A stretch of DNA of 64,000 nt from Rusavskia elegans. Taxonomy: Eukaryota; Ascomycota; Lecanoromycetes; Teloschistales; Teloschistaceae. Made by a program: the position numbers and the translations under genes. Location of the stretch: assembly GCA_011316305.1 (NCBI GenBank), contig SAUG01000071.1, positions 424,182 through 488,181 of the forward strand, given 5' to 3'. The notes beneath the pieces were generated by a model. That model was not told the origin of the DNA. It saw only the letters and a program-made list of their open reading frames with translations, and did no database searches. Positions 15,561-52,377 of the stretch are shown here, in pieces (positions within the stretch are counted from its first letter, which is position 1; every line of letters begins with the position of its first letter).

Positions 15561-15780
15561 ATTAATAATATTTTCTATAATATTTTAGAAATCTATTTAC
15601 TATCGATTACGCTAGTTTTTAGCGGTATAATTATTATTTTTTCGTATTATAATATAAAAGGTTTAAAAAATTATATATAATTTTAATTTAACTAAATTAG
15701 ATAAAAGTAGATAGAATTATATTAATAGTAGAAGTCGAAAGGTTATATAGTATTAAAAAGCTATAAGATTTATATATAAG

Positions 15781-29299: not shown

Positions 29300-31000
29300 A
29301 ATAGTTATATAGATAGTAATAAGGAAATTATAGATATTTTAGAAAATATACCGGCGAAACGTAATTAAGCTATAGCTATTCGAAATAATAAGAAAGTAGA
29401 AATAGCTATTATATAAAATAAAATTACTTTAGTAACTAAAATTATATTAGAAATATTCCTTCTAGACCGACTAGTAAATACTAATAAATATCGGAAAGAA
29501 CTAAACTTAAAAGAATAGATATTATTAAAAGACGAGTTAGCTAAAATAATATCGATATTAAATCTAAAAAGCGTAGCTATAGTTAAAATAAAGATCGGTT
29601 CTATCGATATAGAGATACTAGCTCTAACTAATAATAAGATTATTATATTAGGAAATATAAAAATATTATATTTAAATAGATATTATATAGCTCTAATAGT
29701 ATAGGACTTTAAAAAATAGATAAAGATAGATTTCTACTATATATTAGATCGAGTAAATAAAAAAAGATTTTAAAATAAAAAATAGATTAAAGTTATAATT
29801 AATAGAAAAAATATTAAAAACTTCTTCCGGTACCGGAAATATACGAATATTTTTAATATTAAAAATCGGTCTAGATAGAGAGATACGAAGATAATTAAAG
29901 ATAAAAAAAATAGTAAAAAAAAGTATTATTTAGCTAAAAATCTGCCGGAAATTTACAAAATCTCGAAAGCTATAATAAATAAGCTAATTAATATTCGGGC
30001 GACGAAACTACTAGAATCGAAAGAATATAAATCGAAAGAAAAGAGAATTAAAATATAGAGATAAGTTCTAATCGATCTTTAGTACCTATTATAAAAAATT
30101 ACGATAAATATTTATACCGGAGGTATCGAAACTACGAAACTATTTTATAGGGAATATAACCAGTTTTTATAATAATATAAAGGGTTTAAATATACTATTA
30201 ACCGACTAATAAAAGAAATATATCTACTTAAGTAATATATTATTAATAACGAATTTTAGATTCTAATACTAATAGATAGATTCCTATATAAATCTATCTA
30301 ATTTAAAACTATTATATAAATATTATTTCTAATTTACGATAGTAAACTATTATTAGTATATAATAACTTTATCTAATACCTCTACTAAATTTATAATCCC
30401 GACTATAAATCTAAAATTATAAATAGTAATTAGATAATTCTATTTAAAATTTAAAAGTAAAAACTATTATATAAATCGTCCGAATAGAATATAACGATTC
30501 TAAAGGAGTAAATTAATACTAATTATATAGAAGAGTCTATAATAACTACGAAGCTATATCTATATAATATATAGTTTAAAGGAACCCTATCTAGTATAGA
30601 AAAGATAAATCTACTAACCTATTTTAATACCGTTACTAGCGAAAAGACGTTAGATACTATTACTAAAAACTAATCGGAAATTAATTAACTACTATAAAAT
30701 ATTATATAAATAAAATACCCTGCCTACTAGTATTTTATAATTTCTATTAATATTTAGTAATTACCGTTTTAGATAATTTATAACGAGACCTATAAGATAC
30801 CGTACCTATTTATAAAAAAGATTAGTATTTTAATTTTATTAATATACTATTAAAGACTATATAGATAAAGTAACTCGAATAAAATCTAGTCTAAATCCTT
30901 CTGTTATAAATTTTCCTTTATTATTTTCTATAGTTTTTTATTTTATTTTTTATAGTCCTTTTTCTTTCCGAATATAGTATAGAAAATAGCGGTTAATTTT
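29300..31000 (+). pseudogene. Extra 3' ORF of the 11.2-kb retrotransposon (RIP-broken, unknown function)
   Basis: After the integrase, one plus-strand frame can be read through about 29470-30960 with only TAA/TAG interruptions, mostly where Gln or Trp codons fit. The conceptual protein would exceed 500 residues and is hydrophilic, Lys/Ile-rich by RIP bias, with pieces such as DELAKIISILNLKS and TGGIETTKLFYREYNQF. I recognise no domain. It may be a third gene of the element, a second Gag-like frame, or a nested element without visible ends. AT-rich DNA can give false open frames, so this rests on continuity only. Confidence 0.4.
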
Positions 31001-31140
31001 AGTTTAAAGTACTATTTAGAATAGTATAGATAGGGTTTTTCTAATTAATTAAAACTTTTAGCTTTATTATATATTTAAGCCCTTATAAATATTATAGATT
31101 ATTTAATAAAAATTTAGAAATAGAAAAATACCGGGGAAAT

Positions 31141-31262
31141 TATTAAATCTAAATCGGATTAGTATAATTAAACGTATTTAGATAGAATTTCTATATATTA
31201 GAATTTAGTATCTAATCCACCTTATTCTGTATATTCTGCCTACCACCCATAATAGTACTACA
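31141..31262 (+). repeat. 3' LTR (122 bases)
   Basis: Direct copy of 20096-20217. Here the inner (left) end is strongly RIP-mutated and the outer end keeps CA/TG and ends in GTACTACA. Confidence 0.93.
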
Positions 31263-31645: not shown

Positions 31646-34600
31646 ATGGATCCGTTCTCACTCGCGGTAGGCGTGGCTGGTCTGCTTACCTTGACTGCGA
31701 AGACAATCAAAGCCACGAGGTTGTATTGCCAGGAAGCAAGGCATGCTAAGGAAGCTGCAAGCGAGCTTCTCGTCGAACTCGATGTCCTGCACTTCAATCT
31801 TTCGCACCTTGACAACCTTCTGAAGCGCGATACCGCTGCCGCCTTTTCGAGCACGTCCGTGTTGGCGACAAGCACTCACGCCTGCAGGAACAAGTTGGAC
31901 ATGCTTCATGACAAGCTCAATAAGGCTGCCGAGCATCCATTGCATCGACTTCGGTGGCCTCTTAGTAGCGATGAACACCAGAAGACCATGCGAGAGCTCA
32001 GAGCTTTTGCCCAGTGGATTCAATTTGCCCTCACCATCGATGGGTCCTCCCTGCTCGCCAAGACCTCGACTGAGGTCATTGACGTTTTGACCAACCAATT
32101 GCGGATGTTTCAATTGCTCGGCCAAGTCGATACAAAGGTAGAACATACTCAAAACAGCGTGTTTGACCTACAACATGCCGTACGTACTTTGAAAGCATCT
32201 GAAGAGCGTGAGGCTACCCTGAACTGGATATCCAATACCAAGTCGTGTCAAAAACATCATGATGTTCGATTGCCACGTGTCGAGGGCACTGGAGAATGGC
32301 TCCTGGGAGAACCTGCCTTTAAGTGTTGGCGCGATGGCGAAGAAAACTTGCTCTGGTGCTACGGCATACCGGGTTCAGGCAAATCAATCCTTGCGTAAGA
32401 TTTTTGCAATCATAAGCTGGCGGAAGACTGAAGCTGCCAGATCCCTGGTGATCGATCACTTAAGTCGTACATTCCCAAGTGACCAAGCGGTAGTCGTACA
32501 CACATACTATGACTATCGAGACCAAGACCATCAGTCTGTTGAAGAAACAATAGCTAGCTTACTGAAACAAGTTGCAAGTGGGTTGCCAAAGATGCCAGCA
32601 GCAGTCGCAACCCTCTACCAGAAATTCGGCAAGCAACAGCAGACTCCACAATTGCAGGACTTGGTACAAGCACTGTCATCATCGTGCCGAGAACACAACG
32701 TGGTATACATCATCATTGATGCATTAGACGAATGCGAGTCCAAGTCTAGAAACGGACTTCTCAATCTCCTCGATGAGCTGAAGAAATGTGCGAAGGTGTT
32801 CGTCACCAGCCGTCCTTATCCAGATGAAATAAGAAAAGCCTTTAGATGCACGCCCCAAATCGAGATCAAGGCCCACAGTGCCGACCTTGAAAGATATATC
32901 AATGAACAGATCGAAGGTAGCGAGATTATCGATGATATCGGCGATGCCTTCCGGAAACAGCTCGTTAGCAAGATTGTTCAGAATGCGCAGGAAATGTAAG
33001 CCAAAACCTTGTTAAGCCTACAGTCATGTGTCGTTAGCACAGGTAAGAGTGTTAATCACCCTTCACCCATAGGTTTCTGCTTGCGGTATTGCACGTTCAG
33101 ACCGTATTCAACGAGCCGACTATAGGTGATATGGAAGAAGCGCTTGATCGTCTACCCCAGAATCTCCATGCCGCCTTCGAAGATACAATGCAGAGGATCA
33201 AGCGCCAGTCAGAGACCCGCAGCCGCATCGCACTTCAAGCGCTTACATGGATCTGCCGGGCCAGGAGACCGATGGTGCTTAGCGAGCTAGTTGATGCACT
33301 TGCCTTCAGGCCACGGCTGGTATCTGTGAGCCCAAACCATCGACCATCTCGAAAGACGGTATTGGATTCGTGTCATGGTTTAGTTACAATCGACGAAGAA
33401 AGTCAAGTCATCCGCCTCGTACATTATTCAGTACACGCTTTTCTATTGGGCACTCAAGAAGATCTCATACGCGATGAACGCTTCATAGCGAAGCTGTGCA
33501 TCGAATATCAGATGTTGCAGCCGTTCACGTCAGGTAGCTGCCAAGATGAGGGCGGGATCGTGGATCGACTCAACCATTGTCCTTTCATCGAATATGCTGC
33601 TCGGTACTGGGTGAGCTTCCAGTCTCCTAGAACGCGAAGAACGACGCCTCATCGACCCTATGATATATCATGATTTACTCCGAACATTTTGCTGATAAAT
33701 CAAGGGTTCCCACGTCTTGGCAGCCGATAATTCGACAATCGACGAACGTGCTCTCAACTTTCTTCATGCAAGACCACAGCTGGCTTGTTCCTACCAGATT
33801 TGGCAGTATGCTAAGGGCCGCAGAGAAGAGTATTGGAAAGCAGAGGAAGCTGTGAGCTGTAATCCGCTACACATGGCCGCGATGTTCGGTCTCCAAAATA
33901 TCGCTGCGACACTTCTTCCGCTTTACCCCATCGACGAGCCAACTCATATGGGAACCACTGCGCTCATGAAGGCAGCCTCTTGCGGCCACCGGAGCCTAGT
34001 TTGCCTTTTCATGGATATAAATGCCGACGCCACGAAGCATAACTGGTACGGGACGGTGTTGCACGCCGCGGCTGAAGCTGGCGAGGTTGGCTGCATTCAC
34101 GAGCTGCTGGATCGTGGTGTCAATGTCAATATTAAAGATGACCACGGCCGCTCGCCACTAATCTGTGCTGCAGAATCAGGTCACACAGGGGCAGTACGTG
34201 CGTTGCTTGAACGGGGCGCCAACGTGAACTTCATCTACCGCGGCAAGGGAACACCATTGTCTGTAGCAGTTCGGCAGGCTGCGTCCCCTAGAATCATCAA
34301 AATGCTCCTCGAGAACGGTGCCGACCCGAACATCCCGAGCGCCAATGGCTCATCACCACTGCACATGGCTGCAAGGAACAGCAATGACGACACTGAAGTC
34401 GCGCGCGACTTGCTCGAGTATGGAGCGGATGTTGATGCTCCAGGGAAGAAAGGCCGGACTCCACTGCAGATTGCAGCTGCGGCTAATAATACCACTCATT
34501 TGCAGCTCTTTCTTGATCGTGGCGCGTGTATCGACGCGCAGTCTGATGATGGAGCTACGGCATTGTGTACAGCAGCACGTCTTTGTAATGTCGAAGCTGT

Positions 34601-34898
34601 AAGACATCTGTTGGAGAAGGAGGCAAACTTTGGGATCGCCAACGAACTAGACATCACGCCGCTGGACTATGTCGAATACTATCAGGACACGGCTCTAGTA
34701 CAACTACTTCTCGATGCAGGAGCGGAGAAAAAAGCTTACCACAAGGACGAGAGCACGGCAGCTCTGTTTGATATGAGCGACGACTACCATGAAGATGAGG
34801 AAATAGAACGATCAAGATCCCGGGCAGATGTGGATCGACCAAAGCGAGATCCGGCGCGCTTCTTGAGGAAAACTTACAGAGATCTGCAGGCAGAGTAA
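31646..34898 (+). CDS. NACHT-ankyrin NLR-like STAND protein
   Basis: Four exons: 31646-32394, 32441-32995, 33073-33610, 33705-34898 (introns 46, 77 and 94 bases, all GT..AG); 1011 residues. Joins were set by family reading: GSGKSILA|SLVIDHL, QEM|FLLAV, ARYW|GSHVLAADN. Residues 1 to about 200 are a helical fungal STAND N-terminal domain (MDPFSLAVGVAGLLTLTAK). NACHT domain: Walker A GIPGSGKS at 240-247, Walker B VVYIIIDALDEC at 337-348, and VTSRP at 371-375. A winged-helix-like region contains LVHYSVHAFLL. About nine ankyrin repeats cover residues 660-960, before an Arg/Asp-rich tail. Fungal NLR-like proteins act as cytoplasmic sensors in non-self recognition and regulated cell death; ligand and effector partner are unknown. 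The motifs are intact, so the gene is probably functional despite the adjacent dead element. Confidence 0.94.
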
Positions 34899-36069: not shown

Positions 36070-36726
36070 ATGCCAGGAGAAGTGAGATTCTCTTGGGGTC
36101 CCGGGAACCACTGGGAATTTGCACACAACGACATCGACGCTCTCCTCACCACCCGTTTATCACCAAATGCTCCTGCAAATTACAAAGTGATCTTCACCAT
36201 AGAGAATGCCACCGAGGTCCTCCGTAAACGAAAGACGGAGAAGTATTTCGAATGGCCCGAAAGTGAGCTTACAACAGCCTTCGAAGATCTCCTGGAAGAC
36301 GGAAAGTCTTACGTGGATGACTGGGACAACAAGAAGATGTCGAACCACCCTGAGATCGAAGATCCCGAACGCCATTCACGAGCTAGAGCCAATTTCAAAC
36401 ACGATCTCAAGTCCGTAATTCTCGTGGAACCCCAGGTCATCAAGCTTCAAAGCATCACCGCAAAAGCCATTGCGCGTCTCTGTGTCGGAATTCGCAGTGA
36501 GAAGACTCATCAAGAGGTTGGACGAAGCCTGGACAAGCTGTTTGAGAGGAATGCGCAGTTGCCGGAGTATGAAAGACATGGGCCGATTACTGCAACGGAG
36601 GTGAAGGGTTTACAGCTCTATCTCTGCCTTTTTGACAATCCAGAGTATGATAGGTGGATGGCCATGAGTATGGAGGACAGCGCGTTCAAGGCTAGCTTAA
36701 AGGAATTCGAGGAGGACTTAGAGTGA
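36070..36726 (+). CDS. Orphan-family protein, member E
   Basis: Single exon, 218 residues. The start at MPGEVRFSW follows the TATA-like box, and an in-frame upstream extension is leader. It has no signal peptide or membrane segment and is predicted mostly helical. It shares three regions with the next genes: a Y..xW(D/N) region at residues 81-109; motif 1 at 133-154 (LCVGIRSEKTHQEVGRSL, G140, R142, E149); and motif 2 at 174-196 (EVKGLQLYL, ending in W196). The same two motifs at the same spacing occur in members F and G, so these are paralogues despite low overall identity. Function not recognised. It is the first member of the cluster downstream of the NLR gene and the only one besides G on the plus strand. 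Confidence 0.8.
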   Translation: MPGEVRFSWGPGNHWEFAHNDIDALLTTRLSPNAPANYKVIFTIENATEVLRKRKTEKYFEWPESELTTAFEDLLEDGKSYVDDWDNKKMSNHPEIEDPERHSRARANFKHDLKSVILVEPQVIKLQSITAKAIARLCVGIRSEKTHQEVGRSLDKLFERNAQLPEYERHGPITATEVKGLQLYLCLFDNPEYDRWMAMSMEDSAFKASLKEFEEDLE

Positions 36727-36737
36727 GGTTGAGAACA

Positions 36738-36985
36738 TCGACCTTCTTGTTTTCGGCGTCGTTTTTCTTGTCGTCGTGTTGGTCACATTGATCAGGAGAA
36801 GCGGGTATGTCAGGACCGTCTTCTTTATCGGGAGCTTCCAGTTCAGCAAGCATCGGTCGTGTCGACCTTCTTGTCTTCGGCGTCGTTTCTTTGTTGTTGT
36901 ATCGTTCACATTGATCAGGAGCATCGTGTATGTCAGGACCATCCTCTTTGTTCTTTATTGGGAGCTTCCAATTCAGGAAAAATCG
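36738..36985. repeat. Two tandem 124-base units just after gene E
   Basis: TCGACCTTCTTG at 36738 recurs at 36862, and the match continues (GGCGTCGTTT, CACATTGATCAGGAG, TATGTCAGGACC, GGGAGCTTCCA). The two copies are diverged by substitutions and small indels. They lie 12 bases after the stop codon, so they would be in the 3' untranslated region. Confidence 0.85.
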
Positions 36986-37988
36986 ACTGTGCCAGGAACA
37001 CTGAACCGATCAGTGGCAGCATGAATATTAAAACCATAATTAGGAAATACCTAAATCTACCTTGAATGCTCCCTTCCAATCACTTCTTAATGGTTTCCTG
37101 CACACGGCTATCTCATACCCATTTAGCCTGATACCTGTGAGGTCGATGTCCCTCACACAATGAAGTAGGTAGACAAGTAACGAATCTCCATACCAAGAAC
37201 CCTTGACTGCAAAACCTTGCATCCCTTGGATGATAAAAGCGAGTGTTGTTTGCCGGAGCATTTAGCTAGTGACGTCCTAGTAAGTATCTCTTCGTCCGCT
37301 AACATATTTCCTCCGCCCTATTCACCACTTACCTGAATGATGTCCCGTTCCTTGGCTCTTTTGTTGTGTCATGGGTCAATTTTGTTCGAAGAAGTTAGCT
37401 GCTACACAATAGATAACATCAGAGCAGATATCGGCGAAATCCTGCGTCGACGTGCAGACTGTTGGACGCCGACAGTGCGACTGACTCGTAATATAATATG
37501 AGGATTTTAGTAGGGCAGACGGAAGGGAAGACACATTCCGGCAGTCGAAGGGATGGATGGGAAAGCCTAGATTGGCTTTGGAGGCCTCGTTGGCGTCTGC
37601 TCCCCAGCGTTGCCTGCGGACATGGATATGCCATCGTCGGTGAGATTGATTCTTGGAAGGTGGTTGTGTTGTGCCTCAGGCAGGGGAGTAAAGTAAAGAA
37701 CAGTATTTGACGGACCGCATCCTTATAGCCAACGCAATCAAAGTACAGTTTGGAAATCTCCAGAAGTTATACTGTTTTCCTATCCTAACATTGAAGTTCC
37801 GATACCTCGACTCCTAGCCAAATCGGATGCCCTTCCAGTTCATGGATTAGGTCCCGACCTACAAGCAGTGCCCTGAAATTCAGACAATCGTGTATTCTGT
37901 GATTCAGCATCTGATCTCTCAGCAGTCCTGGATATCTGCTCCTATGTTGTCGCCCTCCGTTCCTCCACAAGGTCAAGTCCAATGAGCA
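36986..37988. other. Intergenic region between converging family genes E and F
   Basis: No supported gene. A 73-codon minus-strand frame at 37040-37261 has a faint resemblance to motif 1, too weak to call. Confidence 0.5.
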
Positions 37989-38657
37989 TCAAGCCGCTTC
38001 CGCCTCTTCCCACAATTCCGCCATCTTGTCCTCTCTCTTCTCATCGTAAGGTTCGCCCTTTGAAAGCACGAATTCATCGTACATACTCCAGCCGGCTACC
38101 CGGAGGTATTCGAAGATGCGCTGGATGTTGGCCTCTGTGAAAGGTCCAAGCTTGTTGGCATGGGCGGCCGTAGGATACATTTTTTCAAGTGCCTTCGCCA
38201 GGTCTGCTTTGGGCATATCCATCTTCATACCCGTACAAAGGTAATCGAGCGAGTCTTGGGGAAACCCATCGTGGTCGCTAAGATCTTCATCTGTTGTTAC
38301 AACTTCGAGGTGCTTCATCCGGTCTGCCAAGTCTTCCTGAACCTTTGCGTATACCTCTCGAAAGAACCTGTAGGCATTCTCTTTTTCGGGGGAAGTGGGT
38401 CCTGCGGCGTTCCAAACAGTGATGTATGATGGATTATATCTCTGTAGAGCTTCGATAGCGTTCTCAAGGTCGCTACGTCGACGCTCGTTGAATTTGTTCT
38501 TGTATTTGTGTCGTAAACAGCTCAGCGCGTTGCGGAGCGTGAAGATCTCGTTGTCTTCGGCGCTTCGATTGGCATCCGGGAGCGTGGTGAGTAGCACGTT
38601 CAGCATATGAATTTCGAGACTCAATGGATTGAAAGGTGCTGGATAAATAGAACTCAT
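37989..38657 (-). CDS. Orphan-family protein, member F
   Basis: Single exon, 222 residues, start MSSIYPAPFNPLS with A at -3. Shared regions: YITVWNAAGPTSPE at 78-91; motif 1 at 136-157 (LCTGMKMDMPKADLAKAL, G143, K145, D152); motif 2 at 174-196 (IQRIFEYL, F196 where others have Trp). Motif 2 falls at exactly the residues it has in member E. The tail is acidic and Lys-rich (EKREDKMAELWEEAEAA). It is soluble, probably helical, with no export signal and no recognised function. It converges with member E and its promoter region backs onto member G. Confidence 0.8.
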   Translation of the reverse strand: MSSIYPAPFNPLSLEIHMLNVLLTTLPDANRSAEDNEIFTLRNALSCLRHKYKNKFNERRRSDLENAIEALQRYNPSYITVWNAAGPTSPEKENAYRFFREVYAKVQEDLADRMKHLEVVTTDEDLSDHDGFPQDSLDYLCTGMKMDMPKADLAKALEKMYPTAAHANKLGPFTEANIQRIFEYLRVAGWSMYDEFVLSKGEPYDEKREDKMAELWEEAEAA

Positions 38658-39990
38658 GATTGGTGCGATTGAGGGAGGCGTGCGGAAACAAGATTAACGA
38701 GGCTTATGGGGATACGAGAAGTGCAGGTGGGATTGTTTGCCTAAAGCAGTGTGTGAAAGGAGGTTCGCAAGATGCCAGTAGGTGCAGAGCAGATCAAGTG
38801 GAGGCCCACCAATATATATGCCGTCGCGTTCTTCCTGGATGTCGTATCTTGGCAACGAGTAGGGCAACGGATGTAGCTGGCAATCGGTCTATCGGATGCC
38901 CACCCCTTCAATGGTAGGGATGCGCTTTGTGCTGTGCCAGACAGTCAGGGAAAGTCCAGCCAGGAGAGCCGTGCGCATTTAGTGTCATAAGTCGAACGAA
39001 CCGCTCGATGCCAGACATATGCTGAGTTAACCGCTGGAGATACCGATGCTTGATCCCAGAAGAAAGCCTACGCCATCTCAAACTGTGTCGATTGACGGGG
39101 ACTGGGGAGGTCATACCAGCCTTAATGAATGACCAGCGAGATGAAGTGCAAGTTCAGACGACACACCCTTGCTCACTCTGCAACCTTGCTGGTTCGCAAT
39201 CCGTTTCGAGTGAGCCCAAGGGAGTTACCGACCTAATTATACATACCCACTAATATAAAGAGAGGAAGGCGGAGAACGATGGATGATGATCATCGGTAGG
39301 GATGTCATGCATGAGCGGAGAGAGATCGACAAAAGCCAGGGATCCAGGTCAAAGGGTAAGTAGATCAAGCTCAGGCCATGGATTGCCATGTGTGAAACAT
39401 GTTTCGGGGACCTTAATTAAAGCGTCTTCGATAGCCCTTGTAAGCCACAGAACAGGGGGCGAGTCGGGTCGAGCTCGGACTCTCGAATCAGATGGCGTTC
39501 TGCCTTCCCTGTAAGCATTGCTCGAGATCGGCATTGCCACCAAGTTTCGCCATATGCTCTGTAAGAGCTAGTGCTGTCAAACACACGTGGGAGCTAGCTT
39601 AGTTTGAAACACTGCCTAGTGTCCCATTTGTCGACGCTGTCCAGGGTGCCTCTGCGGCAAGTTTAGTCGATTCGTTTCGCACCCTCTACTTTTCCAGGGG
39701 GAGCGATTCGTCATCGACTAGGGTCTGGACCTTTCGCTATGTTTTCAGGTCAGCTTCCGTGGAGGCTTCGCGCGCAGGGCGACAGGGGTGTGGCTATAGC
39801 GTGTACACTATGAAAAGCGGATAGACAGCTGTTATTTTTTATTCGGATTTCCAACTCAGCTACTTCTTTGTTGAGTACCCGCCTCAGAGAAATCTTCCAC
39901 TGTTTCAACCAACACCGCACAAACCTCTCTTCGCGTAAGCATTGGAAGTCTCTTAGCTCTGCTCAATATTCGCAACAGTTGCCTTTCGCC
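38658..39990. other. Shared promoter region between diverging family genes F and G
   Basis: 1.3 kb with no supported gene. It holds the TATA-like boxes of F (minus) and possibly G (plus). Several short frames are shadows. Confidence 0.5.
38811..38820 (-). promoter_or_regulatory. TATA-like box of family gene F
   Basis: CATATATATT on the minus strand, about 155 bases upstream of the ATG at 38657. Confidence 0.5.
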
Positions 39991-40617
39991 ATGGTTGACG
40001 CCGACCCTCTAGCCGTTGGACCAAAAGGAAGAATCGGCATCTTTCGTCCATTCGAAATTGACTGTTACCTTGTCACCAAGACAACCAGATTCGACACCGA
40101 CGAGGACGGGGATCTCTTCTCTTTCGATCATTTCTTCGCGATCCTGAAACACGTGGACCACAACCGTTATGGGCTAATGACGAAGAGAGCGATCAAGGAT
40201 GCCTTGAAGAACGCCAAAGACAATGACGATGAATACTTCAGAGAGTGGGACAGTACAGCACACAATTCCCCTCGGCATGAAAGAGTTCGTGAAGGGTTCC
40301 GCAACGAATACCTGGCATACCTACTGAGTCGAATCAAAGTGGAGAATCCCTTTGAGCCTCGAGATGCATTCGATCGCATCATCGCCGGCCTTCGACGCAA
40401 CTTGTCCTACGGTGAAGTCGCAACTGGCTTGAATAGATTGCACAGACAGCAGAGAGACCCTCAACGTCCCCAAAACGTCCAAACCTACAGCACCGACGAT
40501 GTGGAGATCATCCAGGAATACTTGAAGTTCTCGAGACACGACGCCTACCTGAGATGGAACGCTGTAGCCTACGATGACCCCGAGTTCGTCCGGATGGCGG
40601 ATGGGTTGACGGCTTGA
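39991..40617 (+). CDS. Orphan-family protein, member G
   Basis: Single exon, 208 residues. The ATG at 39991 (GCCATGG context) is preferred; the longer frame begins with TTG. Shared regions: YFREWDSTAHNSPRHERVREG at 82 onward; motif 1 at 126-147 (IIAGLRRNLSYGEVATGL, G133, R135, E142); motif 2 at 167-189 (DDVEIIQEYL, ending in W189), followed by DDPEF. This is the clearest bridge between E/F and the more diverged J/K. No signal peptide or membrane segment, and no known domain recognised. A weak TATA-like CTATGAAAAG lies at 39808-39817. Confidence 0.8.
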   Translation: MVDADPLAVGPKGRIGIFRPFEIDCYLVTKTTRFDTDEDGDLFSFDHFFAILKHVDHNRYGLMTKRAIKDALKNAKDNDDEYFREWDSTAHNSPRHERVREGFRNEYLAYLLSRIKVENPFEPRDAFDRIIAGLRRNLSYGEVATGLNRLHRQQRDPQRPQNVQTYSTDDVEIIQEYLKFSRHDAYLRWNAVAYDDPEFVRMADGLTA

Positions 40618-42024
40618 TAAAAGAGTTGTCGAAGGTGGCTTGTGTGAGGTTTCCATCTTCTGATTAGGACACGATATGGAGCAAATTATTAGGTCTGCTG
40701 GGCTCCGCAGCATTGTTATCCAGTCTTCGCCGTATATATTTCCATCAGCTTTCCAATACGAGGTCAAGTACCAATCTTATATCTTGCTCCATGTTCCAAA
40801 CCTCGCCAGCGCTTGATGTCACTTTCTTCTTATTGGCTGTCTCCACGGACGGTGTTGGCTGGTTTACTATGGATCATCTCCGCTGCTGCCAGCGCGCTCT
40901 TGATGTGTGTCCACGAGCGACCCACAGCTCATTGCTCGCAGATTTGACGTGTTTGAGCCTTGGTCATGGTAGTCCTCACAAATTTCACCGGTCAGCGCCG
41001 TTCATACCACTACACAAGTATGCTCTTTAACCGAAATTCCATCCGAGCAAATTGAAGCAGCTGAAGTAGTTCAACCATGCTCTGATCAGCATATACTTCC
41101 CATCTGGTACGACGTCGGAAGCTGATTGAAATTCCTTGAGCTCGGGTCTTGTGGTAGACCGGAAATCGCATGCCAAAGATAGGTTCGTGAGGCCTGTAGC
41201 CATGGATCGATGTGTCTGATGAAGAGGTAGGGTTCCAAGTCTTTGTCACCATCGACTGTGCGTGGATATATCAACGTCCAGCATGTAAATTCTTGCAATA
41301 GATTCACTTCAATAGCGTTTGCTCTTGTCAGGTGGTAGCACAGAAAAAGGGATGATGTCGTTAGGATAAGGTTGGCGCTAGTGTGGTTGTCAAATCCAAA
41401 CGATCTCAGTGCCACAGAGCAAACTTGGGCCTCCCAAGATTCCCCACAGGAGGTTTCCACTATGACGAATGAGGAATCGCAGACGACCAGACCTGACATT
41501 GAGCATCACTAACAATACAAGTGCGTTTTTGTCTACCTGTCTCCATGGCAGATATGACGACCAAGCCATGACGCTCTCAGGAAGGCACCGGTCGCTATGT
41601 ATTCGACGCGAGACAGGCTTCTTGGGTGCGGCAGCTTGTCGGAAAGACGATGATAGCAAGCTGAATCTCATCAACTATCGGCTTCCTATCCGGTTGCAGG
41701 CCCTACGCGTCTGCCCCACTCAATGAGAGACCATAGCTAAGCCTGAAGTTAACGATGGCTTTGAACTCCCTGTCCCCAAATCTGAGCTTGCAATGGTGCA
41801 AAGCCTTGTCTGGTACGGCATATAATAGTGACCGACTCAAAAGAATGAATACTCATTCGACCCTTCGGTGAAGGAACAGGATACCATCTCCACCATGGTC
41901 ACTTACAAAGCAGCCCGCCGAATCGATCTTGAGATGTGACAAAGTCTGCCAAGTCAAAGGCAATAGATACCCCCTTCCGATGGATCTCACCATTCAAAAA
42001 ACGATTTGCAGGCAACACCGATCC
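40618..42024. other. Intergenic region between converging family genes G and H
   Basis: No supported gene. A minus-strand frame at 41086-41499 has a stretch (LCYHLTRANAIEV) faintly like motif 1 of member H; it could be an old relic. Confidence 0.45.
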
Positions 42025-42624
42025 CTAACGATACTCTCGCGGCACAAGCAGGAATTCGACCTGATGATCGGCGCCACGATGAAGTAGTGCCTTATATTTC
42101 TCGACAATCCGCCTGCCTTCCGGATCATGTGTGTCCATCAGCTTCCATTCTTCGATTTTCTCCGGATAGTTTGCAGCCAAGTAATCGTAGATCTTTTCGA
42201 CCACATGAGCGTCTATCTTATCAAGCGGTGACGACATCAGTGATTGCGCATTCACCACATCTGCTATCTCAACGGTTGTCGCGTTTGTCCGCAAATATCC
42301 GCACAATATGTAGTTACAGGCTTTTCGGGTCATTATGTTGTGGTCTGCAAAATTTCTCTCATCTTCTTCGGCTGCGAGATAGGCATCTTGCAAGCGTTCG
42401 AGGTGTCGCCTTGCTCGCTGTGGGTTAATGGCATTCGCGGGCATCACTTGTCCCCTTCGGATGATAGCGGCGACGTCCGAGGCTTTGAAAGTTCGAAATC
42501 GCGACCAGTCCGTGTAGCGAATCATGGTAGCCACGTCTTCGGGGGAGTTAAAGTCGTTGACAGCAACGGTGAAGAGCTCATGGTCTTCGGAGTTGAATGT
42601 GAAGGGAGGACTGGGATAAGCCAT
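42025..42624 (-). CDS. Orphan-family protein, member H
   Basis: Single exon, 199 residues from the ATG at 42624 (ACCATGG context). An in-frame upstream ATG at 42723 would add 33 basic residues; it lies only about 50 bases from the TATA-like box, so the shorter start is preferred. Motif 1 is at 102-124 (LCGYLRTNATTVEIADVV, one residue longer than in E/F/G). Motif 2 is at 138-160 (DAHVVEKIYDYL, ending in W160), followed by HDPEG. Residues 31-40 (VATMIRYTDW) match member I (FATILQMVDW) at the same position, so H and I are closest relatives. Soluble, unknown function. Confidence 0.8.
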   Translation of the reverse strand: MAYPSPPFTFNSEDHELFTVAVNDFNSPEDVATMIRYTDWSRFRTFKASDVAAIIRRGQVMPANAINPQRARRHLERLQDAYLAAEEDERNFADHNIMTRKACNYILCGYLRTNATTVEIADVVNAQSLMSSPLDKIDAHVVEKIYDYLAANYPEKIEEWKLMDTHDPEGRRIVEKYKALLHRGADHQVEFLLVPREYR

Positions 42625-43623
42625 GGTAGTGTACGCGAAATCGTACAGGAGTTTCTTGCGAATTTGAGATTTGCGGAGTCGATAATAGGTATTTCGAGTG
42701 ATTGAGTTGTAGAGAATACGCATAAGTATAGGTGATGAGCAGCCAGGTATTAAATCAGGACTTCCGCGCGTCTATATAGAAATACAGTTGTGTCAACAAA
42801 TCTGTTGAGTAGCAGTGAATACTGATAACAAAGCGCAAAAATAGTATTGGTAGGCATTTGCCAAAATCTGGGAATAAACATTCCATACCGCTACCTGTTC
42901 CCTGGCTCAATGTCGAACGAATAAATCACCAAGTATGCCAAACAAGAAACAAACCTGATTACTGCAGCAAAGCGCTTCCAGAACCAGAACGAACGTGACG
43001 GGCCGGAGGATGATGGTGATACACACGTGCCTTTTGGAATCTTGTTCGAATCATCCGTACTTTTAAGGAAGAAGGGCAAACCGCCGGTCTGCAGGCAAAT
43101 TTTCGATGAGAGACTAGGACGAACCTAGTCAGACGTCCCAGAAGCAAGTGATATAAGATTCAAAGAGGGAGGAAGTCATTTGGTTGCTATCAAAGGCGAC
43201 CAAAGACGGCTATTTTCACGCCCTCTGACTCGCTATGAGGATGCATTGATCTCCATATATTCAGAGCCTCCCGAATTCTATACCATCTCCGAGGCTAAGA
43301 ATAACACTTGCCTTTTGACAGCAACGCAAGGGTTAGATAGGAGAATCTATGCATTAAAAAAGGTAATCACATTCCAGTATCACAGAATTCGTGTGGGTCT
43401 CATTTTCAATCATGGTTGATTTCCCATCTGGTTGAGCCTATAGAGTAGCGGCCGTTGAAAGAAAGACTCTAGCTAAGTTCGCCACCACATCTCTCCCTAA
43501 GTATCCTGTTGCGAGCATCTATGCCTGGCTAATTCGATGACCCTTCGCATTGTTACCAGAACCTTATCCCGAGTCCCAAGGCGGGACAGGGTATGATTGC
43601 GTTGAATAGTCATATCAATCTAA
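42625..43623. other. Intergenic region upstream of H and downstream of I
   Basis: Holds the promoter of H. A 79-codon plus-strand frame at 43180-43419 has no support. Confidence 0.5.
42771..42780 (-). promoter_or_regulatory. TATA-like box of family gene H
   Basis: TCTATATAGA, about 150 bases upstream of the preferred ATG. Confidence 0.55.
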
Positions 43624-44274
43624 TCAACAAGGCGACGACTCGGGCTCCCTAAATTTGACCCGATCAGCTAGAGGAACGGTGATGAGTTCGGATGCAGGAA
43701 GTCCAAGCTGTTTCCGGAACGCAGTCTCGATTGCCGTGAGTTCCTCAGTTGTCCCAGATTCCTGCGCCCAGTCCCAGATCCGCTCACAAACAGTATCCGT
43801 CGGTCCATGGTGTGAGAGGTAATCGAAGATCCTTTGGACCAGTACTGCATTGAGAGGGTTCAATGGGCTTGCTTCCAGAAAGACCTGTTCGTTGTTCAAG
43901 ACTCTCGCTATCTCTTCCGTCGATCGGTTCGTTCGAACGTATCCGTACACCAGATAATCGATGAATTTCGAAGACATTTTGGATTGGAACATCTTGTTGT
44001 ACTCGTTGACTGTTTTCTCGTGGTTCATCAAGGTCGCCTTTATATCTTTGCGCACATCTTCGTCTGGAAGCCTGAGCGTCCGAGAGTACTTGCACCCCAT
44101 GAGCCAGCTATACGCGCGGTCAACGTCGCGTGCCCTCATGTGCCCAAATAGTGTCCAATCAACCATCTGGAGTATGGTGGCGAACGACGCGGGCGAAAGC
44201 TTCAGGTCTAGATGCGCAACGGCCAGCATATCTTGATACTCTTCTGAGAAGTTGAAACCAGCATATGAACCCAT
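43624..44274 (-). CDS. Orphan-family protein, member I
   Basis: Single exon, 216 residues from the ATG at 44274 (ACCATGG context); the frame upstream begins with TTG. The FATILQMVDW segment at 31-40 matches member H. Motif 1 is at 104-126 (YGYVRTNRSTEEIARVL). Motif 2 starts at 142 (LVQRIFDYL) with three extra residues before W167. A C-terminal extension of about 45 residues is unique. Soluble, likely helical, with no recognised domain. H and I lie in the same orientation and probably arose by a local duplication. Confidence 0.8.
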   Translation of the reverse strand: MGSYAGFNFSEEYQDMLAVAHLDLKLSPASFATILQMVDWTLFGHMRARDVDRAYSWLMGCKYSRTLRLPDEDVRKDIKATLMNHEKTVNEYNKMFQSKMSSKFIDYLVYGYVRTNRSTEEIARVLNNEQVFLEASPLNPLNAVLVQRIFDYLSHHGPTDTVCERIWDWAQESGTTEELTAIETAFRKQLGLPASELITVPLADRVKFREPESSPC

Positions 44275-45621
44275 GGTGTTCGCACAAAAGACTTCGCTCA
44301 AGGACTTGAAAGTTTGCTGCGAACTGCTAATGTCAAGAGTGACCGAAGAAGGTTGTAGGAGGAATGTGACGAAGGCAAGCAGAGTGGAAGTGGTGAGCTT
44401 GCTGGATATATAGCTTCAAGCATCCAGCAAAACAGTCCCAGTGGGCCACAGCAGCCAGGTACTGACACGAAACAGGATCTGTTCGAATGACGTGCGGCCA
44501 GGAACCATGGTACAGTGCAAAGTTTTCCAAATAACATGACAAGGGTCGGTACCTACAATCTATTGTTTGACAACGCCGCAGCCTTGATCCAGGATCAACA
44601 TTTCGCAGGGATTACAGCCAGAGAATGCCCTGATTGCCCCTGTCCAAGTAGAAACGCCTCCTCTACACTCATGCTCGATACAATCCCTGCCAGCCGACAG
44701 TCCCCGTCTTTGGCTGAAACTCGCTCATACCTTCCCCAGAGATACCCTGGTGACTGACATCAGGGACTGCGCACTGCAAAGATCTTCATTCCCCCCAGTT
44801 TGTAGGGATGAAACAGTGATGTGCCAGATCGTGCCCGGATCTGCAGTAAACCACTCAGATCCCTGTCCAAAAGCGCGAAACATACGCATGCAGGAGAGCT
44901 CTGGTATCTGGAAATAGATCGCGTAAATTTGTACGTAGGAAATAGCCCTTGATGCCATGACTTGGCAACTGTACGCCGAGAATGAGATTAAGGGGCACGT
45001 GCCATAGAGGGGCCTCTACCACTACCTTCAGAAGAGTTGACGATCCTTGGTTTCTGTGGGGTCTCCATTCCTATGCCATTATGGAAGAGCTCATTACTTG
45101 AGATCCTGTATGGTGTTTCAACATTGTGGGAAATATGGAGGGTTTGCGCCGACTTGATGGATCTTTAGCTGGTAGCAACGGGTTTCTGCAACGATTACGA
45201 CTTCAATTCCCTCACGCCAAGGGATTATTTCAAGATATCGGAATTCACCGGTAAGCTAAGTGGTCTTCGTGCATTGTGAGTCCACATTGTGCTTTTTCAA
45301 CCCAGACTGCGTTGCTCGTCGGCCTTTTCATCGACGTTCAGATTTCGGTCTTGGACAGTCAATAGTTTTCAACTATGGTTCAGGACCGACAAAATATGGT
45401 CTGGTTCACATATAATATATCAGAGGTCACTTCGCTCTGACGAGGAAAAGATTTGCAACATCAATTTGAATTCCTAAGGTTCAATAGAATGTTGCGGTCC
45501 TAATCAATCCAGTCCTAACTGGTCATCCAAACCACTCTCCACATGTCCAGTCAACCATCCGCCATCCCTGGATGAATCTGTGCTGTGTAGTGTGCACATA
45601 ATCATTCCCATGCGCTATCCA
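44275..45621. other. Intergenic region between family genes I and J
   Basis: Promoter of I at its left end. No supported gene in the rest. Confidence 0.5.
44404..44414 (-). promoter_or_regulatory. TATA-like box of family gene I
   Basis: GCTATATATCC on the minus strand, about 135 bases upstream of the ATG at 44274. Confidence 0.55.
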
Positions 45622-46408
45622 TCACGACACAAAGTCGGGATTATCTTTCGCAGCTTGCTCCTTTTTCCTGGTCCATGCATTAGTATATGGATATCGTATA
45701 GAACAAGCTGATTTCTCATTGTCTAAAACACTAACAATCAAGGGTACAGCGTACTTACTTGATCACGGGCGTCAGATTAGGTATAAATTGCATGAACACC
45801 TGTCTACACCAGAGCATGAGGAAGTTGACGGTAGGGGTATGATTGTCCACGCCCACTAGGAAGTCTTTTCGAAATCTGGGCTTGTCCTTGTAGCAGACCC
45901 AATTCTGCAGTTCTTTGTCGATCAAGTCAGATCTTGGTTCGAAGACCGGCTCCCCCTGAGACTGACGCCTCAAGGATATGGCATCCATGACCTTCCTGCT
46001 TGTGACATTGGTCGTCCAGTATCTCGACCAAGCCAGCAGCAAAATATCTCCGTATCTCAGCTTTTCATAGGCGGTCCTGAGCTCTCGGAGTTCGCGGTAC
46101 TGTTCGAGGTAGTCTTCCGGATGCTCGATGACGTGTCTGTAACTCTGAAGGTAGTTATGCCACTCTGGTGTGTTTTGATCCTCGGCGGCCTCCATGTAAT
46201 GCATGATACTCTGCATGCCCTCAATAGGGGAGTCTTTGTACTTTGCCCAATTTTTACGGCAGACGATCAGCAGGAGATCGTGGGCTGAGAAATATTCTCC
46301 GTACTTCTTGGCTAAGTCTCTGGCGATTGAGAAGGCGTACAGCTCGTTGTATTCCGGCGCCGTTGTAATACCTGGGATAACCAACTCGGAGCCAAATGCG
46401 GCCGTCAT
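45622..46408 (-). CDS. Orphan-family protein, member J (two exons)
   Basis: Exon 1 is 46408-45759 and exon 2 45667-45622; 231 residues. The 91-base intron has GTAAGT, a perfect branch site TACTAAT and CAG. Unspliced, the reading stops three bases into the intron (217 residues). Splicing replaces the end with KKEQAAKDNPDFVS, which recalls the DPEF ending seen after motif 2 in member G. The motif 1 equivalent is near 119-143 (YGDILLLAWSRYW, SRKVMDAI). The later segment (LIDKELQNW) stands for motif 2. It is more diverged than E to I and shares a longer C-terminal part with member K (both contain MQF). Family membership is likely but less certain than for E to I. Confidence 0.68.
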
Positions 46409-47701
46409 TGTGGGGATAGATTGGAGCTCGAAAGAGGTCTTGCGCTGAAGGATTCGATGAACAAGAAGAGGATGACAGCTGTTGCTTCGAGTGTTTGGCT
46501 AGAGGGATTGTGACCTTGAGATCACGCTGCGATGTGCTGATGGATACTGGAGGCTTGCTGTGTTGAAGTGACTTATGAGTCGTAAGAGAAATTGGGCGTC
46601 CTTTATACTCCGTCTTGACTCTGCCATGGTCTCGTCTCCCAAAAGGTCTCCAGATCTTCGACCATACTGAAACCCGCACCACAAACGTGCCAAACATGGC
46701 ACGGAAAGTCTTAACGAAATGACAGAAACGATCACCCGCAGACTGTGCCATTCCTCCTGGATCGCCGTGCTTTAACGATTCCCATGGCTGAATTGCCAGG
46801 ACTGGGGTCTCTTGAGACCTTGACACCTTCAACACAGAAGACTGGAACACGGAGTAGTGTCAAACGTCCTTACCCCTGTGCTAATAGAGCAGGACGAAAC
46901 CTGTGCCATCGTGCTTGGATCTTCAGTAGCCCCTTATTGACGCCATCGACAGCAACGACAGACCAATTGTGGGAGGAAGATCAACTCAGCCCTGTCGGGT
47001 GAATTGGAAGGTGTGAAACATAGGCTTTGATGCCACAACCTGCTAAAATTATACTCAAAACTGACCATGAGACTGTCACCACACTCAAAGACCCCCTATC
47101 CTGGTCTTTACTACGTCTCGACTTGCCGTTCTAGAAAAACCGCTCATTCTTTGTGGTCCTGTACAATGGCAATGAAGCAGCTACTCAAGCCATGGCTGAT
47201 TCCGAATCAAGCCCATGCCCTCGACCCACATTCCGAGCCTGCTGGCAGTACTAACACGTGCAGGGGGATCGGCGATGAGTATTGGGCTTTGTTCTGTGGG
47301 CAATGAGGTCGCTGGGTTCATATGGGTCAGCACATAGTTTTGATGACGAAATGCTGTACGGGGTCCTATTCAGAGTGCATGTGTGAATTATGATGGCGAG
47401 GTCAGGGATCAGTAGCCCAGAGCTCGCCGGAGGTCCAGTGTTGATCAATCATTCGACCTACTATGGACCCTTCAAGGTCATCACAACTAGATCAGGAGAA
47501 GCATGCTGGTGAGATAATGGGTATGTCCTCGACTACCCACGACAAGCGCTCTATCTGAGACACTCGGGCCTAAATACATTTGGAAAATGTGACGTATAGG
47601 GAATTCGAACACCAAAGCGATGGTAAAGGAACAACGACAACATCAAAGCAGAGCGCGATGTCAACTTGCGACTTTCCACAGACGCACAACAATCTGAATC
47701 T
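46409..47701. other. Intergenic region between family genes J and K
   Basis: Promoter of J at its left end; no supported gene beyond. Confidence 0.5.
46601..46610 (-). promoter_or_regulatory. TATA-like box of family gene J
   Basis: GAGTATAAAG on the minus strand, about 195 bases upstream of the ATG at 46408. Confidence 0.5.
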
Positions 47702-48570
47702 CTAGGAGGCCTCCGGCTCCAGCGCAGGCCGCTGGGCATCCCATTCCTTGGCCGTAAGTACCCATTGTCTGAAGAACCTGTATCCACGGACTCGTGAGGT
47801 ATCTGTCTTCCCCTTGTACATCGTGTCGTCTTTCTGGATGTACTTCGACATCCACGGGAATTGCATGAGTCGCTCATCCATCATATTCCTGTTGTTCTTT
47901 TTTCTGATTTCCAGATACGGGTCCCTATAAGGGTGATGTTTTATCCACCACTTGAATTGACGATAGGAGAATGATCTGAGTATTCGCGTAGCCACTGAAC
48001 CTCTTCTCCCTTCATGTCTTGCTCACGGTCGTCAATGTCTTGGGTGGGAACAAAATTGTCGTCGAAGCGTTCTCTGCCGTAGAGATAAGTGAGTGTGATT
48101 GCAATATCTTGATCCCTTATGTGCAACCACAGATCCGCCATGGTGATGGTCTCGAAGACATGCTCCGGGACTTTCGCAACATCAGGCACGCATCGGATCA
48201 TCGTGTCGTACCATTCTTCGATCAGTCGCTGGTACTCGCTCTTGGCGAGGTCTCGATGAGCACTCGTAGACTTGTCTTCCCATCGAGTGATGTAGGCAGG
48301 ATGCTCCTTTTCGTCCCATAGCGCTTCCATGATAGTGTCGACCGTTTCAGGAATCGGGTCGTCGTGCCAGGTATCAGGATAGCCTTTCATTTGAGACCAG
48401 CAGCGACACGCATTGAAGAAACGCATTTCTTCGCTGACTTCTGCATGGCGGTATGCCCACGTGAGCATGTCTGCGGTCGCTACTTTGATGTTTTGCAGGT
48501 TTTTTTGAATCTCGATAGGGAGAACAGACTCGCCATCCAAAGCAGGCGCGGAAGACGTAGAAGTAGACAT
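47702..48570 (-). pseudogene. Orphan-family member K, probably frameshifted
   Basis: The frame from ATG 48570 runs 209 residues to a stop at 47941. It contains a motif 1 equivalent (RDQDIAITLTYL) and a motif 2 start (EEVQWLREYSDHS). The continuation (YRQFKWWIKHHPYRDP, like Y..W....DDPEF of member G) is in another frame, which stays open from 47995 to a stop at 47702. Both frames carry family sequence that should be contiguous, so a one-base shift near 47960-47975 is likely. The alternative is a 50-base intron (47951-48000), but its GTTCAG donor and AAG acceptor are poor and it would remove motif 2. If the stop at 47941 is real, a truncated 209-residue protein could still be made. The C-terminal part after the shift resembles member J. 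Confidence 0.6.
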
Positions 48571-49739
48571 GACGAAGAAGTGCTGAGTGCAATTGTTTTA
48601 AGACAGCGTTTGTGAAAAGATGAGATTCGGATTCCAGGACTTGGCGGAAAGTAAACGGCAGCGGAGAGGCAGAGGTGCCTACCATTATATACAGATTCTC
48701 AGCGTTGAACAGACATGGATGTACTCCTTATCGAGTTCCATGGTATCACGTTGAGCACACGTGAGCTGAGAAGCTCCGTTCACAGGGCCACTGCCCAGTC
48801 GCAATCCCAGGGGCCGTGAGTCCATCCCAAGCTCTTGGTAAATCGTCTCGAGCACTACACGGCTCTACTTGCAATCAAATTGCGATCAGGATGCCAGGCA
48901 CATCGAGTGACAAGGGGCAGGCTCCACATTAATCCTAGGAGCTGTAAGAGACCAGCGACACAACAACGACATCCTCTCGGGTGGCTTGATCGCAAACAAG
49001 GCGTTCCGAGTACGCAACGTCGAAACAATCGAGGCAGGGATGCTCGTCAACTCTTGTCCCCAGTCTTGCGTTCGGACCTTGTTTTCATGCTATCGTTATC
49101 GCACGTGGAGGGCTGTAGTCAAACTGCTCGGCACAGATTGTAGTAGAGCTGTCTGTCGATCAAACGTTCTACCTGCGAAATCAAGATCGTGGAGTCTCCC
49201 GCGATGATCGACTGGAGTTCCTGTGTTTTGTTAACAAGGTATTTGATTGCCCTTGGTTTCAAAGTAGCTGTATGCTCGTTAGCGCCATGTCGATACAGTA
49301 CTGAGGTTTCTGGCTGGCGAGTCCGCCAGGAAGGAGTTGAGATCATACTGTCAATAACGGAAAAACATCCTGTAGTATCAATGACACGGAAGTCTTCCAG
49401 GTTTGTTGTATTAGCTGTGGGATTAGATGAACATTCTGCTGTAGCGAGCTACGATAGAGAGAATCCTAGAGTATTGTCAGAATCCAGAGATCCTAAACCC
49501 TCGTCTTATTCTTCTGTCCGATTCTTTCCTATTGAATTGATCCGAGGAGTTAGATCGAGCTGTCCTTCATGCTTGAAAAGCCTCCATACAATGAGGACGG
49601 AATGAACACCGCAATCTCATTGAACAGTAGATCCGTCTGGGCCAAGCATCAAGATATACTTCGCACAGGTGGAATGTCCAAATCCAAGGTGCTAGCCGTC
49701 CACCAGTGTCAAGGAACCACATCGTCGTGGTGAAACGAC
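48571..49739. other. Region upstream of family member K
   Basis: Promoter of K at its left end. Other frames (for example 49189-49605 plus) have no recognisable content. Confidence 0.45.
48685..48694 (-). promoter_or_regulatory. TATA-like box of family gene K
   Basis: TGTATATAAT on the minus strand, about 118 bases upstream of the ATG at 48570. Confidence 0.5.
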
Positions 49740-50130
49740 GTTGGGAATTCGAGCTTTTGCGGATGGTGGAGTTGAGATACCGTTTAAGGGACACCAGAGC
49801 TGCCAGCACTCGCAGTCTGCTCCACGAAGGTATCTGCGAAGACTGTAAGTTTCCTCGATGTCCGCAGCATCTACATTCTTCCAGCTGTCTCGTAATGTTG
49901 GAAGGGTCTCCATGAAACCCCGCTGGTGATAATCCTCGTGAGAGCCACCGCGATGTCGGTCTTCCCTTCTTTTGTGTAATTCGTCTGACAGTGGCTGCCC
50001 AGCGAAGAGGTTCCGAAGCAAATCCCCGGATCCAATTTACTCACTCTACTGTTGACTGACAGAGGGACAAAGTCCAGCAGTATCTCCCTAGGTGAATGTA
50101 TATATCCTAGGGTCCCTAGCTTACTCACTG
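49740..50130 (-). pseudogene. Broken copy of the orphan family
   Basis: Two minus-strand frames each carry one family motif in the right order. About 49927-49980 reads KEGKTDIAVALTRII, matching the end of motif 1 (for example YGEVATGLNRL in G, QDIAITLTYL in K). About 49785-49850 reads NVDAADIEETY..RRYLR followed by CWQLW, matching motif 2 (for example EANIQRIFEYLR in F, DAHVVEKIYDYL in H). They are in different frames and the N-terminal half is not readable, so this is a decayed paralogue. Confidence 0.55.
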
Positions 50131-52377
50131 AAACATCGGCGGGGACGACGTCTATGTTTAAACCTAGACGGAGCTCGAGGCAGAGAATTGTCTTTGCTCA
50201 AACAGATGAAGCTTGCGCGCCGCGCGAAGATCATTCCGGATCCCTCCATCTTACCGTTGCCTCAATCAATCTCAGAGCCGCTTGTATGTTGATTGACTTG
50301 CATGTCTGGTGGTGGTTATGGAATCTCCGACTTTTGCCTTGCGAGGCTTCGAAAGTTCCTCTCATGGTAGGTGCCCACCCAGCTACCAACGACGTCGCCT
50401 GCGATGTGCCAGTAAATCCCCAGCACTCTTTGCTCATGTAAACAGACCCACCGTACTTCTTGTGCACCTTGATGCTTCATCACATCTTGGCCAATGGCTG
50501 ACCAAATTCCGACTCGTGTTGCGAAGACGTTAGGTTGGAACCGCAGAATAGTGCTTGAGCTTGACCAGCCTGGCCATCAGAAAGAGTTCGAAGCGACTTT
50601 ACCCTCCTCACCCACACAGATGTTCATGTTGCCAAGCATCGCCGAATGGATGCTGTAGGTCAGCATACCGGGACAGTATTCTGTGCGGCAGTCTTTGCTC
50701 CAACATGATGATCTCGTTATTCCTCTTCTAGTTCCCTTGTCCACGTCAGATCATCACCACCAGAGCGCAACCCAAATCAGGATTCAGCTCGTTGCATCCA
50801 AAACTTGCTTGGCCATATTGTGTTAAGCACGGCAACACGACCCTCAAATCTGAACCATGCCTCAATCCATTATGACGCACGAACCATTATTCACCTGCCA
50901 GCCCACTTTCAAAGAAAGCAAAAAAAGTCTGGGTAGGGACTTGAACGAACCCCGGGACAAATTGACTCTCTCAAGCCCATGTCTTAATGCGATTCATTTT
51001 ATTCCCACTTGCGAATTATCAGCGCATCAAAATGTCCAACTAGCTGCCAGACCACTCACCCAGATTCGCCTAGCATCCGCTCTAATTTCAGATGTGGACC
51101 TTCCCATATCGCTTGGTCAGTCGACAAGGCCTTAACTTGACTGGGAGGCAACACTCCCAACATCCCGTGCAAGAATGTCAGTCTGCACAGATTTACAAAG
51201 TACTATATCCAAATCCGACAGAGTCCCACCACACCGCTCGCCAGCTCGCAAGTGTACCTACGCTTTACACGCTTGTGCTGAGACATATTCAGCGGCGTGG
51301 AGATCGATATTCTCCAAACTAACCTCGCAATCTCCAAGTCCACCAACGACACAACCCAAGCTCTTAGTTCCAGAAGTCCAAAACACCACCAGCCAGCCCA
51401 GAAAGTCCAATTCGAATCGATCTCAACACTTTACAAGCCCAATCGCCAAAGAAACGTATATATTGTAGTCAGAAAAGAAAAACCAGCCGGCAAATCGACC
51501 TTTCACAACAGCCATATAACAACCATCATACAAATCGTCATTCCAGCCAATAGCCTCGACATGGATACATCATACAGAACAACAAGAAGCATCACAGAAG
51601 AACCAATATACCTCTGCATCGACGTCCCAAAACCGGCTTGCTCGGTCCAGCAATACTATGGGATCCTTTAATTCTACAAACTCAGTCGAGATCCGCACGC
51701 TCTTCAAAACCAGGCCGACGATGGAGATGAGAGGAATCCTTGGACCCCCGACAGAGTGAGCCGTCGCGATGATTCAATCGTTCTCAGCACATTCGCCTGC
51801 GATGCCATAAAGCACTTGGGACTCTGGAAGTTCAAGTCTTATACAGCGACTGCTTGCCGTGCCGGGCTTTCAAGATTAATCTTCTGGTTATATGGTGGGA
51901 GGGTGGGAGTAGAAAGGGTGGAGGTGGTTGAATACGACATGTCTGGAAGCACACTCGGACATGCCTGAAAGAAGAGCGCCAAGATTGGAGATCATGAGAA
52001 AGTAGTAAGGCCTTTGAATATTAATGAAGCCGTGGTTGCGCCGGCGCTAAGATGTTTTGTCTCCTGCGCTTGCGTCATGGGTCTTGGCACTGGCAGAAAT
52101 GACGCCCCTTTATGGCAGATACAGAAGAAGCGCAAGGGTGCATGGAGCAGGACATTGTATGCGATATGATTGGAGATAGGGGGAGAAATGTGGGAATATA
52201 TCCTATTACTACATAAAATTGAAGCTCTACTGCTGTACATTACCAACGCGCTTCTTCAAACTCGTCCTTCCTCCAATTGCCCTCTGCTCCTGACCGTTAT
52301 CTCACACACAGGTAGAGCATCCGATGTGTCTGACGCTCGAGGTCTCGAATACCCACCCCGCCAGCCGAAGGGATAAA
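50131..52377. other. Long region without a convincing gene
   Basis: Only short frames. A plus-strand segment near 51560-51630 (SYRTTRSITEEPIYLC) recalls the RTT...EDE.ICL stretch of fungal HET-domain proteins and may be a remnant of such a gene, but the match is short. The last part is the 3' flank of the Hsp20 gene. Confidence 0.4.

Follow-up and report, generated by a model that had tools for sequence, protein, structure and literature searches.

What are seven small, strongly diverged genes doing side by side on one contig of a lichen fungus: do they descend from one ancestral gene, how old are they, and what might their proteins do? We asked this of a gene cluster in Rusavskia elegans, whose genes, named E to K, lie in a window of 64,000 nucleotides (the whole stretch of DNA analysed here, positions 424,182 to 488,181 of contig SAUG01000071.1, assembly GCA_011316305.1) that reaches the contig end, in a genome of 44.2 Mb and 217 contigs. 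The original prediction, made from the DNA letters alone, had described the cluster as a local group of at least seven strongly diverged paralogues of an unrecognised family, accompanied by a relic, and the seven open reading frames (ORFs) with an ATG start that we found in the cluster region sit at the positions it gave. Profile comparisons place E to I in one protein family, which, judged from sequence, is undescribed; J and K are probable members.

Kinship of genes E to I

When the seven proteins were searched against one another with phmmer, as a seven-sequence database, they fell into groups. E, F and G matched one another (1e-12 to 8e-9) and H matched I (8e-17); between groups, only F and I (5e-4) and F and K (5e-4 one way, 0.002 the other) came near. 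The link between the groups emerged from profiles. Protein searches yielded 29 homologues (11 for E/F/G, 13 for H/I and 5 for J/K), and with orthologues added, the E/F/G profile aligned to the H/I profile in hhalign over 148 columns with a probability of 96.1 and an E-value of 3.6e-9; the best of 40 column-shuffled controls reached a probability of 1.3.

A hidden Markov model (HMM) search gave the same grouping. The original prediction had tied its family to the ability of an E/F/G model to find H and I, and among 179 ORFs of at least 100 amino acids (aa) from 104 kb this model ranked F, G, E, H (1.4e-5), I (4.1e-5), K and J, in that order; it also recovered H and I from six-frame chunks of the window, at 2.7e-4 and 4.1e-3. 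The reverse search was weaker, with the H/I model reaching F at 0.0044 and G at 0.027, followed by an unrelated ORF at 0.04, and E only at 2.5. Single-gene profiles compared across the groups were likewise weak, with probabilities from 0.1 (E and I) to 33 (F and I), and it is the pooled profiles that carry the signal. BLASTP with G alone nevertheless reaches H orthologues from Flavoplaca and Polycauliona, at 1e-4 to 9e-4. The second of two short motifs described earlier (motif 2) lies at identical coordinates in E and F, as had been noted, with Y184, L185 and Y193 in both.

Membership of J and K

For J and K the evidence is closer to the noise. Directly after the five genes above, the E/F/G HMM placed K (0.018, rank 6) and J (0.027, rank 7), ahead of the best unrelated ORF at 0.067, and an HMM of all five genes likewise had J (0.0084) and K (0.9) directly behind those five, with 1.2 for the ORF after them. 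In profile-profile comparison with E/F/G, the two kept register along some 150 columns, scoring 26.7 (J) and 26.5 (K), at E-values of only 0.003-0.004; none of 100 shuffles scored as high, the maxima being 25.8 and 24.6. Across four such hhalign tests the E-values were 0.003-0.012, each time with none of 100 shuffles as high.

Could J and K instead be unrelated orphan genes that lie beside a five-gene family by chance? Several results speak for this and weigh against a seven-gene family. The E-values just given are weak and fall below conventional significance; direct profile comparison of J with K found nothing above shuffle level, as was the case for most single-gene profile comparisons involving either gene; the H/I HMM fails on both (K 5.0, J 6.6) among the 179 ORFs; and a noise match of the g profile in AT-rich DNA, at 6.1-6.5 kb, reached an E-value of 0.038. 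Against chance neighbours stand the ranks of J and K, which are the next two of 179 ORFs after the known members with both HMMs, and their in-register alignment, which outscored every one of 100 shuffles in all four tests. We consider the chance explanation unlikely and J and K probable members, so that the proposed family of seven paralogues stands for E to I, through HMM and hhalign, and as probable for the other two.

The relic that had been placed beside the cluster, at about 49-50 kb, found no support. None of nine profiles matched the region 48.7-52 kb in the six-frame window at E<=1, the best later profile figure nearby was 4.4 (H/I profile, ORF 49695-50036), and a genome search with the DNA of 48900-50450 found only itself, with no second copy.

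Distribution and age of the family

The arrangement of the genes recurs in a relative. The orthologues in Xanthoria sp. 2 are tagged L6R38_005950 (E), 5949 (F), 5948 (G), 5947 (H), 5946 (I), 5945 (J) and 5944 (K), and the longest contig given for every one of them is 25,460 bp; because the seven tags are consecutive and in the same order, we infer that the cluster is collinear there. PMC9907504 lists assemblies of Xanthoria sp. 1 and sp. 2. For Rusavskia elegans itself, E, F and J correspond to the tags Q9199_003298, 003299 and 003303, and the three tags before the last of these would fit G, H and I; these three were not returned by the protein searches.

An organism name is attached to 22 of the 29 homologues, and all of these belong to Xanthoria, Rusavskia, Calogaya, Polycauliona or Flavoplaca, which NCBI places in the Xanthorioideae. 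The family is apparently restricted to Xanthoria-type lichen fungi, with the proviso that the search can detect only relatives with five-residue words in common and that a wider spread is possible. Within the genome, translated searches with F (E<=0.001) and with G, H, I, J, K, P0019 and P0011 (E<=1), a query set from which E was left out, matched only this cluster; a single point weighs against one locus, namely an extra, chance-level match elsewhere with P0026 (E 0.47).

How old are the copies? The original prediction read them as products of rapid divergence after local duplication. The strong local divergence is borne out, since identity between paralogues within the genome is about 16-30% where BLASTP yields an alignment, but its recent origin is not: H orthologues from different genera are 59-93% identical, and a tree of 29 sequences (E to I and 24 relatives) sorts by gene rather than by species. 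Support was 99/98 for the F set, 100/99 for E, 96/97 for G and 100/99 for I, each set joining several sources, in a tree in which only 10 of the 26 inner branches have good support, the H rows stay unresolved and a program warning flags the meeting of long branches. Several genera are represented in each of the G and H sets, and their duplications must therefore predate the split of those genera. On these sequence comparisons, the lineages of G and H, at a minimum, appear older than the divergence of Xanthoria, Calogaya and Polycauliona, with H older than that of Flavoplaca too, which makes the paralogues ancient and not freshly diverged.

Domain searches and predicted structure

The earlier impression that the proteins contain no known domain agrees with Pfam, where none of the seven window proteins and none of five J/K relatives reaches the gathering cut-off. 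Among 14 and 15 aligned relatives, for which cut-offs were shown for the first member of each alignment, the best Pfam E-values were 0.0045 and 0.013, the matching families being bacterial and unlikely. A pooled profile matched no PDB sequence at E<=10, and there was no convincing fold match for the family. Several candidates were discarded as weak, with related sequences giving different partners: the baeRF- and CdsD-like Pfam matches (best E-values 0.0045 and 0.013), SepF (0.87-1.1), the NCBIfam model glcD (best 0.0088, in two of 29 members) and matches in PHROGs (best 0.021). An EF-hand, suggested by a weak PLC-delta match (E 1.1) and by inspection of the sequence, was also rejected: two helices in F start about 21 residues apart, a spacing too close for paired EF-hands. 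Among the literature matches listed, the cluster is not named in titles or in the opening parts of abstracts. The description of the cluster as an undescribed system holds for the protein family; it does not extend to joint action of the seven proteins.

The structural models are all-alpha. A good model of H, from 29 sequences (mean predicted local distance difference test, pLDDT, 88.5; predicted template modelling score, pTM, 0.81), has helices at residues 12-24, 28-38, 48-56 and 68-93, then at 100-112, 117-127, 139-152, 154-162 and 168-181. The F model, from 14 sequences, is also all-helical, with helices at 41-57, 61-74, 90-121, 134-145, 150-160, 175-187, 191-198 and 205-221 and extra short ones. 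In the second half of the models, motif 1 corresponds to helices a and b and motif 2 to helices c and d, and hydrophobic positions common to E to I recur within predicted helices at the spacing of a helix core. The strength of a shared fold is reduced by three points: the F model is mediocre (pLDDT 69.3, pTM 0.55); its agreement with H is one of helix order, compared without superposition; and the H alignment included E/F/G rows, so that the model is no independent evidence of kinship.

The two halves of the protein resemble each other. In the five-gene alignment, H residues 8-94 compared with 96-185 score 29.7 (E 4e-5; none of 150 shuffles as high, maximum 15.4); the tool's own, second alignment gives 26.3 (none of 150, maximum 16.9) and the E/F/G profile alone 18.9 (none of 100, maximum 17.1). 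Counting against a repeat, the H/I profile alone did not reveal it (score 15.3, with one of 150 shuffles as high), nor did six single-gene profiles. The pooled comparisons suggest that the protein is likely a tandem duplicate of a helical unit of about 85 residues, and that this duplication is old.

The closest known systems include helix-turn-helix and tri-helical domains (terminase small subunit 6ejq, GerE, sigma region 4, Pax and POU), and the proteins might be helix-turn-helix transcription regulators, with helix c binding DNA to control symbiosis or stress genes. Helix c of the second unit, however, is not basic: its net charge is -1 in H, 0 in I, E and F, and -3 in G. A neutral or acidic helix-turn-helix-like core makes DNA binding less likely, and we regard this explanation as quite unlikely. 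The seven proteins as a whole have isoelectric points of 4.5-6.3 and grand averages of hydropathy of -0.35 to -0.76.

Being small, lineage-restricted and strongly diverged is also the usual profile of effectors, and the proteins could be thought of as unconventionally secreted effectors acting on the alga or on microbes. They have few cysteines (1-3 in each of E to K) and, judged by eye only, no N-terminal hydrophobic stretch, and they are conserved between genera; together these features make an effector role highly improbable.

Gene models and upstream regions

All seven ORFs are judged to be real genes because an orthologue of every one occurs in Xanthoria-type lichen fungi. The family members proper are E (36070-36726, + strand, 218 aa; orthologues P0002, 91% identical, and P0003, 88%), F (37989-38657, - strand, 222 aa; P0001, 93%, and P0004, 89%), G (39991-40617, + strand, 208 aa; P0005, 90%, Calogaya P0008, 67%, and Polycauliona P0010, 62%), H (42025-42624, - strand) and I (43624-44274, - strand, 216 aa; P0012, 92%, and P0015, 91%). 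H is the most widely found of them; its ORF spans 42025-42723 (232 aa), and the full-length Xanthoria sp. 2 orthologue P0013 (199 aa) begins at its Met34, from which we count H as 199 aa.

The probable members J and K depart from this simple pattern. The genes were described as mostly single-exon, which holds with J as the exception: its unspliced ATG ORF (45755-46408, - strand) encodes 217 aa, and the gene at 45622-46408 consists of exons 45759-46408 and 45622-45667 around a GT-AG intron of 91 bp (45668-45758), giving a spliced protein of 231 aa whose short second exon matches the tail of the J orthologue (P0025, 84% identical). K (47705-48570, - strand) is open to 47941 (ORF 47941-48570, 209 aa), and its orthologue P0026 (289 aa) aligns to the genome in two frames that overlap, one covering residues 1-198 and the other 197-289, with their junction at 47977-47983. 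Relative to P0026 the frame is broken there, making K the exception to intactness; the break may be a true loss of frame or an assembly error.

TATA-like boxes lie at -121 to -199 in five of the seven genes (F -161, H -154, I -138, J -199 and K -121). The upstream regions of E and G have no TATA box, which tells against a promoter type common to the cluster. A shared upstream 8-mer, CCCCAGTC, present in four of the seven upstream regions, was rejected, one of five random controls having given a word of equal depth. Similarity among the intergenic regions is confined to short, weak repeats and a local duplicate behind E, and these repeats offer no evidence for recent gene duplication. The duplicate (36734-36985, just behind E) is direct, with a start-to-start distance of 123-130 bp and pieces of 27-64 bp that are 81-96% identical.

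Genomic setting

A gene of several exons encoding NACHT/NPHP3_N and ankyrin repeats (31646-34898) ends 1.2 kb before E; beyond the cluster, the stretch at 52-61 kb holds HSP20, aldo/keto reductase and MFS genes. The first of these neighbours raises the possibility that the cluster is part of an allorecognition or immune locus in which the small proteins partner the NLR-like protein, all the more as recognition loci often hold local, strongly diverged paralogues. The orthologues of E to K are, however, conserved across genera and not polymorphic, and Pfam finds no domain shared with NLR partners; such a locus seems very doubtful. Fungal NACHT-ankyrin STAND proteins are nevertheless among the known systems to compare, since one such gene adjoins the cluster, with the difference that E to K have no NACHT or ankyrin match.

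The other side of this gene is AT-rich. DNA of about 21% GC occupies 1-16000 and 20200-31200, the second island stopping about 5 kb short of the cluster, and both show dinucleotide ratios typical of repeat-induced point mutation (RIP), with TpA/ApT at 1.26 and 1.30 and a second index of 0.12 and 0.10 for 1-16 kb and 20.2-31.2 kb. The seven genes are not RIP-like (TpA/ApT 0.42-0.74; second index 1.04-1.27). RIP attacks similar duplicates, and RIP-like mutation nearby may explain why only strongly diverged copies persist.

Two tandem repeats were also recorded in the window, one of 12 bp in 14 copies (18015-18186) within a Gly/Gln-rich open frame (17581-18549, - strand), the other of 51 bp in 2.3 copies at 95% (63170-63285), near the contig end, where no telomere-like array appears in the output of the repeat finder.

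Discussion

We tentatively interpret the cluster as a taxon-restricted family of seven ancient tandem paralogues, whose products would be all-alpha intracellular proteins built of tandem units and binding different partners. One locus in Xanthoria-type lichen fungi would hold the seven fixed copies, each encoding a soluble protein of two tandem helical units of about 85 residues, in which helices a and b, forming motif 1, would pack with motif 2 (helix c and, after it, the Trp or Phe of helix d) into a helix-turn-helix-like core. The paralogues would keep this helical core and vary their surfaces, so that each could bind a different protein partner as an adaptor or regulatory subunit, and expression would be switched on mostly from TATA-type promoters. 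A bolder form of this interpretation, which we consider distinctly doubtful, is that the family is specific to lichens, that its tandem pair of helix-turn-helix-like four-helix units forms a fold not yet in the PDB, and that the seven are specialised subunits that arose by duplication before the radiation of the Xanthoria group, their order at the locus kept through joint work, for example as alternative or co-assembling parts of a symbiosis- or desiccation-linked complex.

Lineage-specific, or orphan, tandem gene arrays of filamentous fungi are a generally known kind of locus. The cluster resembles them in its local paralogues, its lack of a Pfam family and its proximity to AT-rich DNA with RIP-like ratios; it differs in that the copies are ancient, at about 16-30% identity, each having an orthologue in a related species, where the tags are consecutive. 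Genes unique to lichen lineages are candidates for the special traits of the thallus, but they are usually single orphans. With seven paralogues whose orthologues occur in several genera and bear consecutive tags in a related species, and with a confident structural model for one protein and a set of promoters, this family would offer an experimental handle on such genes, and on how old paralogues may persist 5 kb from DNA bearing RIP-like mutation.

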